From Lactiplantibacillus plantarum (GTDB taxonomy: Bacteria; Bacillota; Bacilli; Lactobacillales; Lactobacillaceae): a stretch of 64,000 bases of DNA. The notes below the pieces were generated by a model. It saw nothing but the letters and a program-made list of their open reading frames with translations. It was not told the origin of the DNA and did no database searches. The position numbers and the translations under genes were made by a program. Location: positions 1,736,001-1,800,000 of the forward strand of contig NZ_CP039121.1 in assembly GCF_014131735.1 (NCBI RefSeq), read 5' to 3'. This document shows positions 48,086 through 50,943 of this stretch, piece by piece; position 1 is the stretch's first letter; every line of letters starts with the position of its first letter.

Positions 48086-49375
48086 TTAGTCAAACATCAC
48101 GTTATTTGGGAAGTGTGCCAACCGAGCACCGTCAGCACCTAATTCTTCCTCAATCCGCAATAATTGATTATATTTTTCAACGCGTTCAGAGCGGGCTGGC
48201 GCACCAGCTTTTAGCTGAGCCGCATTGGTGGCCACTGTGAAATCAGCGACGAAAGTATCACCAGTTTCGCCAGATCGGTGTGACATCATCGTGGCATAAC
48301 CATTTTTGCGAGCTAGCCGAATCGCGGCCAAAGTTTCGGTAACGGTCCCGATTTGATTTAATTTAATTAAAATATTGTTAGCCATCCCCCGCTGAATTGC
48401 TTGCCGAATTAATTGCGGATTAGTGCAAACCGGATCGTCAGCCACAATCTGAAGCTGGTCACCATGAGCAGCTGTAAAGCTTGCAAAGTTATCCCAGTCC
48501 TCTTCCCCGTATGGGTCCTCAATTGAAACGATTTCTGGAAATTTCGCTAATAACTGCAGATAATAATCGCCAAGAGCTGCCGGCGTGTACGTTTTGCCTT
48601 CAAAGTCATAATTGTGGGTCGTTCGATTATAAAAATACGAGGCCGCCGCGTCAAAAGCAATCGCAATTTCTTTACCAGGTGTATAACCAGCTTTAATAAT
48701 CGCATCATGTAATATTTGCAAGGCTTCTTCTGAGTTTTTAAGATCAGGCGCAAAGCCACCCTCATCACCTAAACCAGTCGTGTACCCGGCATCTTCGATA
48801 ACTTTTTTCAAAGTATGATAAGTATTCACGATCTTTTCAAAACCGTCCCGAAAACTGGTTCGTTCGACCGGTGTAATCATGAATTCTTGAATATCAATGC
48901 CATTATCTGCATGCTCCCCACCATTGATCACGTTATGAAATGTTTGGGGTAGCTCTAAATCAGTGCCACCTAAGTAACGATAAAGCGGCTGCTGTAATGC
49001 GTTTGCCGCCGCTCGTGCCGTTGCCATTGAAACACCCAAAATAGCATTCGCACCCAGACGCGCTTTGTTAGGCGTACCATCTAGGTCAATCATGATTTGA
49101 TCAATATGGGCTTGGTTAAACGGGTCAGCACCATGTAAAGCATGATTAATGACCGTATTAACATTATTAACAGCCTTAAGAACACCTTTGCCGGCTAAAC
49201 GATCACCACCATCGCGTAATTCAACTGCCTCTTTTTCTCCAGTCGAAGCTCCCGATGGTACTTCCGCGCGTCCTAGCGTCCCATCTGACAAAATAACGTC
49301 AGCCTCAACTGTTGGATTACCCCGTGAATCAAAAATTTCGCGAGCCTTTACCGTTTCAATAACTTGTTTTTCCAT
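48086..49375 (-). CDS. eno: enolase (second paralogue inferred)
   Basis: Enolase interconverts 2-phosphoglycerate and phosphoenolpyruvate. Seen: AREIFDSRGNPTVEADV, GEHADNGIDIQEFMI, the metal Asp in IAFDAAASYFY, SIEDPYGEEDWD, VADDPVCTNPQLI, catalytic Lys in ILIKLNQIGTVTET, and SHRSGETGDTFVADF. At 429 residues it is full length. L. plantarum WCFS1 is known to have two enolase genes; this one is outside the usual gap-pgk-tpi-eno cluster, so I take it as the second copy. A hairpin/terminator leader lies directly before it. Confidence 0.94.
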   Translation of the reverse strand: MEKQVIETVKAREIFDSRGNPTVEADVILSDGTLGRAEVPSGASTGEKEAVELRDGGDRLAGKGVLKAVNNVNTVINHALHGADPFNQAHIDQIMIDLDGTPNKARLGANAILGVSMATARAAANALQQPLYRYLGGTDLELPQTFHNVINGGEHADNGIDIQEFMITPVERTSFRDGFEKIVNTYHTLKKVIEDAGYTTGLGDEGGFAPDLKNSEEALQILHDAIIKAGYTPGKEIAIAFDAAASYFYNRTTHNYDFEGKTYTPAALGDYYLQLLAKFPEIVSIEDPYGEEDWDNFASFTAAHGDQLQIVADDPVCTNPQLIRQAIQRGMANNILIKLNQIGTVTETLAAIRLARKNGYATMMSHRSGETGDTFVADFTVATNAAQLKAGAPARSERVEKYNQLLRIEEELGADGARLAHFPNNVMFD

Positions 49376-49395
49376 ATCAATCTCTCCTTCTTAAC

Positions 49396-49441
49396 CAAAA
49401 AGAAAAGACGCCTACTGTCTGAAAAACAAACAGTAGACGTC
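49396..49441 (-). terminator. intrinsic terminator in the enolase leader
   Basis: Stem GACGTCTACTGT (49430-49441) with ACAGTAGGCGTC (49407-49418), one G-U, 11-base loop, then TTTTCTTTTTGG. It ends about 20 bases before the enolase start and downstream of the promoter at 49505-49532, so it must be read through for enolase to be made. It also ends the upstream MFS gene. Confidence 0.8.
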
Positions 49442-49467
49442 ATCAAATTGATTATCAATTATTATGT

Positions 49468-49483
49468 GGCGAACGTCATCGCC
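49468..49483 (-). other. hairpin in the enolase leader
   Basis: GGCGA TGACGT TCGCC: a 5-bp stem with a six-base loop. The loop TGACGT can pair with ACGTC(T) in the 5' arm of the downstream terminator, which offers a possible antitermination pairing. Speculative. Confidence 0.5.
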
Positions 49484-49504
49484 GATTAACTTTTGAACAA
49501 CTAA

Positions 49505-49532
49505 AGATTACACCTTCTCAAAACAATGTCAA
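49505..49532 (-). promoter_or_regulatory. promoter of the enolase-ATPase unit
   Basis: -35 TTGACA (49527-49532), 16-base spacer, -10 TAATCT (49505-49510). Transcription would start near 49498, giving a leader of about 123 bases that contains the hairpin and the terminator. Confidence 0.7.
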
Positions 49533-49548
49533 TCTTTTTATAACATTT

Positions 49549-50943
49549 TTATCGTTGACCAGCTTGACGCGTCTTCATTGCCAATATCATGGTCCCCAAT
49601 TCAATCAGCACTAAAATCAGCAATAACCCCAACGCCATGGTTGACCCTAACGCTGTCCGATGCGCACTAGTTCCAGTCGTCTGTACTTGAACTAACGTGA
49701 TAACGGCGGACACGACTGAAGTCCCAATGGCCCCTGCAAACTGCTGCATGGTATTGAACACGGCATTGCCATCAGCTTGATGCTCAGCTGACAACTGCTG
49801 TAAGCCACTCGTCATCGTATTACCCATGGTTAAGCCAATACCAATCATTAATAAAATGTAAATGGCTAAAATCAAACCGCCTGACAGGTGCATCCCCAAC
49901 ACCGTAAACAGTGCCATGGCAATAACCAAAATTGTTGAACCCGTTAGGACTGGTTTGGCTGCACCCAGACTGTCTAGAATACGTCCACCTAGTGGGGCAA
50001 AAACAGCCCCGATTGCCGCGCCAGGTAGTACAAACAAGCCAGCTAACAAAGCACTCTTGCCGTTCACTAACTGGATGTAGTTGGGCAATATGAAGGCCAA
50101 CCCGAGGGCACAGATTTGAACCAAAAAGTACGCCATTAAGTGCAAATCATAAGATTTTGTGGTAAAAATCGCCAGATTGATTAGCTGTTGTGCCGCTCGA
50201 CGTGTGCGGATAACGAACCCCACAAGACCAATCAGACCGACTACTAGCCAAGCCACAAAAATCAGTGGTTGCGTGGTAATCGTGGCTAATTTGCTAAATC
50301 CAATTGTAAAGCCAACGAATAAGAGGACGATCATCAGCCAACCGACCACATCAAATCCAACTTTAACTGTCGGCTGGGCTTGCCGAATCGCATATAGCCC
50401 TAACACAAGTGAAATCACGAGTACCGGGATCAGCAGCACGAAAATCCAATGCCAATCCATCCAACTAACGATCAAGCCCCCAAAAGTCGGCCCCAGTGCT
50501 GGGGCGATTGCGGTAATCAGCGTGCCAATTCCCATCAAGGTCCCTTTCTGCCGTGCCGGTGCCCAATCAATAATAATATTAAACATCAACGGTAAAGCAA
50601 TCCCAGTTCCCAGTCCTTGAATGATTCGTCCAGTGACTAAAACGGGAAAACTGGTCGCGGTCGCGTCAACGACCAATCCCAGTATAAACAATAAATTGGC
50701 TGTCACAAACAGCGTTTTAGTGCGAAAACGGCGTTTCAGAAACGCCGAAATTGGTACAATAATTGCAACTACTAACAAGTAAGCCGTGGTCATCCACTGG
50801 ACCGTCGCCGTATTGAGTGCAAATTCTCGCATCAACTTAGGGAAAGTGATATTCATCGCAGTCTCCACGATCACTCCGCAAAATGAAAGTAATCCGGCAG
50901 CCACGATTGCAAGAATCAATTTGAGGTCAACACGTTTTTCCAT
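49549..50943 (-). CDS. 14-TM MFS drug exporter (DHA2 / EmrB-QacA type)
   Basis: A 464-residue major facilitator with 14 membrane helices. Family motifs: MTTAYLLVVAIIVPISAFLKRRF in the loop after helix 2, VTGRIIQGLGTGIALPLMF in helix 4-5, and GPTFGGLIVSWMDWHWIFVLLIPV (motif C region). DHA2 pumps expel drugs and other hydrophobic compounds using the proton gradient. A MarR gene is divergent from it and two copies of a palindrome lie between them, so I infer control by that regulator. Confidence 0.9.
   Translation of the reverse strand: MEKRVDLKLILAIVAAGLLSFCGVIVETAMNITFPKLMREFALNTATVQWMTTAYLLVVAIIVPISAFLKRRFRTKTLFVTANLLFILGLVVDATATSFPVLVTGRIIQGLGTGIALPLMFNIIIDWAPARQKGTLMGIGTLITAIAPALGPTFGGLIVSWMDWHWIFVLLIPVLVISLVLGLYAIRQAQPTVKVGFDVVGWLMIVLLFVGFTIGFSKLATITTQPLIFVAWLVVGLIGLVGFVIRTRRAAQQLINLAIFTTKSYDLHLMAYFLVQICALGLAFILPNYIQLVNGKSALLAGLFVLPGAAIGAVFAPLGGRILDSLGAAKPVLTGSTILVIAMALFTVLGMHLSGGLILAIYILLMIGIGLTMGNTMTSGLQQLSAEHQADGNAVFNTMQQFAGAIGTSVVSAVITLVQVQTTGTSAHRTALGSTMALGLLLILVLIELGTMILAMKTRQAGQR

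Follow-up and report, generated by a model that had tools for sequence, protein, structure and literature searches.

A fluoride riboswitch in front of a second enolase and a P3A-like ATPase in Lactiplantibacillus plantarum

Results

The leader described here lies on the minus strand of a 64-kb stretch of the L. plantarum genome (hereafter the window), between an MFS gene (stop at 49549) and the start codon of an enolase gene (ATG at 49375), which is followed by a gene for a P-type ATPase. The features of the locus, in the order of transcription, are as follows:

49505..49532, minus strand: probable promoter, TTGACA (49532-49527), 16 bases, TAATCT (49510-49505); from the sequence
49427..49492, minus strand: fluoride riboswitch aptamer (RF01734, crcB motif); cmscan, 39.9 bits
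49468..49483, minus strand: aptamer P1 hairpin GGCG-AU-GACGUU-CGCC; cmscan alignment
49477-49472, minus strand: pseudoknot 5' strand GACGUU; cmscan alignment
49446..49460, minus strand: second aptamer stem AAUUGA-UAA-UCAAUU; from the sequence, position as in the model, limits by eye
49436..49441, minus strand: pseudoknot 3' strand GACGUC, shared with the terminator 5' arm as its opening six bases; from the sequence
49441-49407 (stem) and 49406-49397 (T-run), minus strand: intrinsic terminator, stem of 15 pairs plus T-run; scan and folding
49384..49389, minus strand: ribosome binding site AAGGAG, between T-run and ATG; from the sequence
48086..49375, minus strand: second-type enolase (ENO2); TIGR01060
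45742..48018, minus strand: P-type ATPase, P3A-like (proton-pump-like), separated from the enolase by 67 bases; TIGR01647 and 5ksd

An earlier, sequence-only reading of this leader had described a good promoter, a small hairpin with a TGACGT loop and a strong terminator, all ahead of the enolase. The hairpin is present (49483-49468 in the aptamer register) and the terminator is as strong as claimed: the 15-pair stem folds with -22.9 kcal/mol (z -9.7), a stability equalled by none of 200 shuffled sequences, and the leader from 49500 to 49396 folds with a z of -6.2 (0/200 shuffles equally stable). The promoter was overrated in one of its halves. Its -35 box is perfect (6/6), but the -10 box, TAATCT, is weak, matching TATAAT at 3/6 positions, and the TTGACA-16-TAATCT site is absent from the list returned by a promoter-pattern scan of the window. 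The enolase ATG begins 21 bases after the end of the T-run (about 20 had been estimated), a space too short for a promoter. A five-codon frame, MTFAT (ATGACGTTCGCCACATAA), was also correctly read, at 49479-49462.

The same reading had recognised no known riboswitch class in the leader, which proved to be wrong. A cmscan search of the whole window matched the leader to the fluoride riboswitch family RF01734 at 39.9 bits, above the gathering score of 34 (E 1.4e-7). T-box and all other Rfam families gave no match at the gathering score in the leader and were ruled out, in agreement with the earlier view that it contains no T-box. Two matches in the window exceed their gathering scores, the other being an FMN riboswitch (RF00050; 14141-14262, minus strand, 99.8 bits). 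The crcB motif was reportedly identified as a fluoride riboswitch by Baker in 2012.

The small hairpin corresponds to P1 of the aptamer, with 4/4 pairs formed, and the GACGUU strand within it (49477-49472) forms 6/6 pairs, one of them G-U, with GACGUC (49441-49436). In the solved aptamers of the class, the position of GACGUC is that of the pseudoknot 3' strand, although the pseudoknot is absent from the Rfam model line. The terminator 5' arm begins at this strand, so that aptamer and terminator are mutually exclusive, and the pairing between loop and terminator arm that had been proposed as a switch is the aptamer pseudoknot, that is, the expression platform of the class itself. A fluoride-defence gene, the enolase, lies downstream in the window. 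The agreement with the class is complete at the RNA level, where no difference was seen: aptamer, pseudoknot, motif-overlapping terminator, ON logic and a position 5' of a fluoride-response gene are all common to both. The difference is in the genes, as the window copy serves an enolase and a P3A-like ATPase and not an exporter. A passage in Weinberg 2010 (PMC2864571) likewise describes predicted terminators that overlap the conserved motif, with the ligand expected to raise expression.

Three RF01734 places were found in the genome from which the window comes. Besides the present leader (39.9 bits), there is one at the head of a second riboswitch-enolase-ATPase operon (46.6 bits; locus L061, 4501-11829, at about 1368500-1375830 of contig C1) and one of 28.6 bits, below the gathering score, that lies divergently near this second operon, ahead of two MutS-like genes. 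Close to the second operon there are also matches to group II introns (L061 2551-4317). The second copy is informative about an alternative raised in the sequence-only reading, namely that the terminator merely ends the upstream MFS transcript and that the enolase has another start. The MFS gene is on the same strand (stop at 49549) and the region from its stop to the leader is free of terminators in the scan, both of which fit that proposal. Against it stand the RF01734 match in the leader, the distance from T-run to ATG (21 bases), too short for a promoter, and the second copy, which has the same leader with only the divergent MutS-like gene, and no MFS gene, upstream. This second leader, together with the recurrence of the arrangement across the family, makes the alternative very unlikely.

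Two CrcB genes are located at C1 3049863-3050569 (loci L161 and L162), far from all three RF01734 places. No RF01734 match was found beside them, so the exporter seems to be outside the switch in this strain.

Conservation was assessed across 397 genomes of the family Lactobacillaceae. RF01734 is present in 89 of them (E at most 1e-3), with 79 over the cut-off. The analysis covered 112 of the 124 listed RF01734 places; the 12 omitted are all below the gathering score, as are 9 of the 112 analysed. With pseudoknot positions in the model fixed in advance, and with leaders counted raw, irrespective of kinship, none of the 112 forms fewer than five of the six pseudoknot pairs and 106 form all six, while P1 has 4/4 pairs in 110. 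The two strands have changed together, as GACGTT/GACGTC (58 leaders), GGTGTT/GACACC (29) and GGTGCT/GGCGCC (3), and the mean of 5.95 pairs compares with 5.53 when the 3' strands were dealt among the leaders (maximum 5.67 in 2000). A terminator placed on the pseudoknot strand, defined by a 5' arm starting 0-3 bases from that strand and then at least 5 T in 9, occurs in 102/112 leaders and in 144/2240 shuffled sequences; nine of the ten leaders that lack it exceed the gathering score.

The same alignment bears on whether the MTFAT frame might act as a leader peptide or in ribosome-mediated attenuation. The frame exists, and an ATG occupies this model position in 108/112 leaders, but this ATG belongs to the aptamer consensus GAUG, the 108 frames encode 75 different peptides, and no ribosome binding site was seen by eye before the frame. 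Even the six leaders of the genus differ: MTFAT and MTFAVTN occur twice each, MTFTVTN and MTFAANNC once each. No conserved short leader peptide was therefore found among the 112 leaders, and since the ATG is fixed and the peptides are not, the frame looks like a by-product of the conserved GAUG of the aptamer. An attenuator working through MTFAT is the least credible of the explanations considered.

Classed by BLAST, the first gene behind the 112 riboswitches is most often an enolase of the window type (48 cases), followed by CrcB (26), a P-type ATPase (10) and a MutS-like gene (4); in the remaining 24 it is another gene, or none lies within reach. Operons were delimited by script (gaps up to 200 bases, first frame no further than 450), and names for members outside the enolase, ATPase, CrcB and MutS-like classes come from single representatives or were given by eye. 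Such representatives of the other first genes include DUF190, a calcineurin-like phosphoesterase, a HAD hydrolase and a histidine phosphatase that by eye resembles a phosphoglycerate mutase. By the same kind of inspection, the 24 seem to include some CrcB genes undetected by BLAST. A 189-residue protein is encoded directly behind a fluoride riboswitch in L079 (5818-6387, minus strand) and L080; its start is pyrophosphatase-like by eye, and a Pfam search with this protein gave no family match. According to the relevant passage of a review, enolase is often found in fluoride riboswitch operons (PMC11139923), and the window leader therefore adds to a known kind of regulon.

The window enolase scores 580 bits against TIGR01060 (cut-off 300) and keeps the 12 catalytic positions, numbered as in the yeast enzyme. 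The same 12 are kept in 43 riboswitch-led enolases, save for one row that differs at a Ser. Three enolases occur in the window genome: two are riboswitch-led and 81% identical to each other, and a third, 55% identical to that of the window and present in every one of the 21 genomes of the genus, is taken as the housekeeping enzyme. In a tree, the 43 full-length riboswitch-led enolases are separated by a fully supported branch from 21 housekeeping enolases, and form one lineage relative to these, all of which are rows of the window's genus. The two ENO2 copies of the window genome are not sisters, so they do not represent a fresh duplication. Near-identical enolases occur under four genus labels (rows G174, G314, G195 and G148). 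Riboswitch, ENO2 and a close ATPase occur together in the same 5/21 genomes of the genus, and none of the three was found in the other 16.

The second gene of the operon is less easily classified. The ATPase scores 468.1 bits against TIGR01647, under the cut-off of 615.5, and for this reason is named P3A-like only. Its best-scoring solved chain is 5ksd ('ATPase 2, plasma membrane-type'). Similarity to TIGR01647 and 5ksd extends over most of the length and includes the phosphorylation Asp and the Asp of transmembrane segment M6; the differences are the score under the curated cut-off and a Glu in place of the M5 Arg of the plant pump. Asp 612 aligns with the Asp of the ILND motif of the plant pump, its proton site (number 684). 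This M6 Asp is kept in 29/29 riboswitch-linked ATPases, including G063. From these comparisons the ATPase probably transports protons. An alternative, compatible with the riboswitch and touching the second gene only, is that it moves a divalent cation, for example Mg2+ or Ca2+ disturbed by fluoride. The low TIGR01647 score leaves room for this, as does the annotation of the short last gene of the FRM operon of Enterobacter cloacae as 'Divalent cation transporting ATPase', given in a passage of PMC5533749; on the other side, the best-scoring family and the best solved relatives are proton pumps, and the M6 Asp is kept in all 29 linked sequences. Divalent-cation transport is judged a serious but rather unlikely alternative.

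In the genus, the five genomes with a close ATPase carry it at 58-100% identity, and the best matches in the other 16 are remote, with at most 31% identity over long alignments. Among the 397 family genomes, the riboswitch is present in 89, an ATPase with 40% identity or more in 75, and both in 53 (kinship ignored). At this threshold there are 81 ATPase places, some of them fragments. RF01734 lies no more than 3.5 kb upstream, on the same strand, at 39 of these places, which belong to 13 genus labels (within 400 bases at 13 of the 39). The remaining 42 lack upstream RF01734 in the family scan, which used stricter filters and so lost weak matches, and 24 of them belong to genus label g38. A cmscan with wider filters, run on 13 ATPase loci (12 unlinked) that included roughly 1.5 kb of flanking sequence at either end of the gene, found RF01734 in one, the already linked L182. 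The ATPase is accordingly not a private partner of the riboswitch, and the linked set, which needs four changes in the ATPase tree, is not one clade. Of the 12 unlinked ATPases (L172, L177, L178, L183-L188 and L190-L192), 4 have Asp at the M6 position and 8 have Asn; the Asn suggests another or a lost transport role for these relatives.

Seen from the riboswitch, a P-type ATPase lies behind 32 of the 112, after an enolase in 22 and as first gene in 10. One of the 22, in G063 (33% identity, 928 aa), is another kind of P-type ATPase and is to be discounted from the 32. In a draw of 398 genomes from the class, 4 match the ATPase (E at most 1e-100), three of them in the family and one beyond (35% identity), and no RF01734 over the gathering score was found at the latter locus. 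A search of named genomes gave no close relatives among the 80 loci listed, which hold remote P-type ATPases (24-39% identity).

A promoter-like site, TTGACG-17-TATAAT (11/12), is present inside the enolase gene (48654-48626, minus strand) and could serve the ATPase alone. The same letters encode FDAAASYFYN, so the site may be a by-product of coding or an extra start for the ATPase.

Comparable gene sets occur on plasmids and probable mobile elements. Eleven Lactobacillaceae plasmid records (Pediococcus, Loigolactobacillus, Levilactobacillus and Secundilactobacillus) match the enolase-CrcB part of one locus of this kind with 93-96% identity; 10 of the 11 have a beer or brewery source, and none covers 80% of the query. 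A brewery plasmid of Loigolactobacillus backii (L275, 3743-7864) has RF01734 before an enolase, two CrcB genes and IS elements. No P-type ATPase is listed on it, the one Lactobacillaceae plasmid that was opened, and a tblastn search with the ATPase against plasmids (E up to 1e-100) returned no Lactobacillaceae record, all 29 records being from Enterobacterales. In L079 (147-14852), one of the loci with near-identical enolases, genes for an integrase of phage type and for Rep_trans replication are found with three fluoride riboswitches and genes for DUF190, a phosphoesterase, two CrcB proteins, enolase, a P-type ATPase and a MutS-like protein. The integrase and Rep_trans genes near the riboswitches make an integrating element likely, and the region looks like a mobile fluoride island.

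Two of the 29 Enterobacterales plasmids were opened (L276, 1725-16342; L277, 1763-16340). Each carries three RF01734 matches, one of them before a row of genes for a pyrophosphatase or DHHA2 protein, a universal stress protein, eno, a gpmA-type mutase, crcB and a full-length P3A-like ATPase; this row adjoins a pair of genes, one or both of them named MutS. The Enterobacter plasmid ATPase is 37% identical to that of the window and reaches 600.3 bits against TIGR01647, short of 615.5, and the enolase of such an Enterobacter plasmid cassette is 50% identical to the window enolase.

Discussion

The aptamer match, the strand common to aptamer and terminator, the conservation of both and the association with particular genes were all obtained by computation. 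The reading that the window leader as a whole is a transcriptional ON fluoride riboswitch for a second enolase and a P3A-like ATPase is held with a probability of about 94%. The earlier proposal of a conditional terminator serving both genes was right, given this identity. The leader is a real and well conserved fluoride riboswitch, an ordinary RNA of its class, and the second gene of its operon is the more interesting part.

Transcription would begin just downstream of 49505. Without fluoride, the terminator 5' arm would take GACGUC (49441-49436), and RNA polymerase would halt in the T-run, near 49397. When fluoride and Mg2+ are present, the aptamer (49492-49427) is predicted to fold, so that GACGUU (49477-49472) holds GACGUC, the terminator is unable to close and polymerase would read through into the second enolase and the P3A-like ATPase. 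A spare enolase could then sustain ATP-yielding glycolysis while fluoride inhibits enolase. The ATPase would most likely export protons that enter as HF, and may maintain the membrane potential that drives fluoride out via Fluc/CrcB channels. The operon would in this way act as an ATP-supply plus proton-pump module.

This particular leader is expected to respond to fluoride. A different possibility is that the aptamer has decayed or been retuned, its fold being kept in a leader that is constitutive or that answers to another ligand. Its 39.9 bits are fewer than the 46.6 of the second own copy, and a passage of PMC2654425 reports that L. plantarum EnoA2 is expressed in standard growth, without added fluoride; should EnoA2 be the window enolase, this would speak against a tight OFF state. 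Set against these points, the score is over the cut-off, and the six pseudoknot pairs and the strand-sharing terminator are intact. Decay or retuning is considered improbable, with a slim chance of being correct. The weak -10 box counts against a working fluoride switch at this locus.

A fluoride-induced riboswitch operon containing an enolase has been demonstrated by experiment in E. cloacae; as given in an excerpt of that study, the FRM operon consists of ppaC-uspA-eno-gpmA-crcB-orf5249, and its last gene, orf05249 (261 bases), the one with the ATPase annotation, was induced 15.5-fold by fluoride (PMC5533749). Upstream RF01734, an enolase within the operon and an ATPase-annotated, fluoride-induced last gene are common to FRM and the window, whereas FRM has more genes and orf05249 has just 261 bases. 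I think that orf05249 is a piece of a gene of the P3A-like ATPase kind. The ATPase is, on the evidence of this excerpt, not wholly new to the fluoride literature. No account of it as the proton pump of a fluoride regulon was found in the literature searched, which comprised parts of papers and did not extend to the gene list of Baker 2012.

A plasmid region of Listeria offers a further parallel, with genes for a cation/proton antiporter, enolase and CrcB according to one passage (PMC8508797). Here too an enolase is next to a proton-linked transporter and CrcB, but an antiporter replaces the P-type ATPase, and a riboswitch is unmentioned in that passage. An idea akin to proton export by the ATPase is backed by experiment: in Streptococcus mutans, more F0F1-ATPase raised fluoride tolerance and the inhibitor DCCD reversed the effect, as reported in a section of PMC8841791.

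More tentatively, at slightly under even odds, the fluoride regulon of Lactobacillaceae may have a recurrent core of ENO2 and a P3A-like proton pump that was moved between genera partly on integrating elements. This core would secure ATP for exporting protons and for membrane potential, which would enable fluoride to be expelled through passive Fluc channels, and a like combination would have been assembled in Enterobacterales plasmids.

What had appeared to be an unknown attenuator is now recognised as an RNA switch that is well understood. The finding suggests a testable explanation for the second enolase of some lactic acid bacteria, and it draws attention to a P-type ATPase that recurs in the fluoride response of Lactobacillaceae and has been little noted as a partner.
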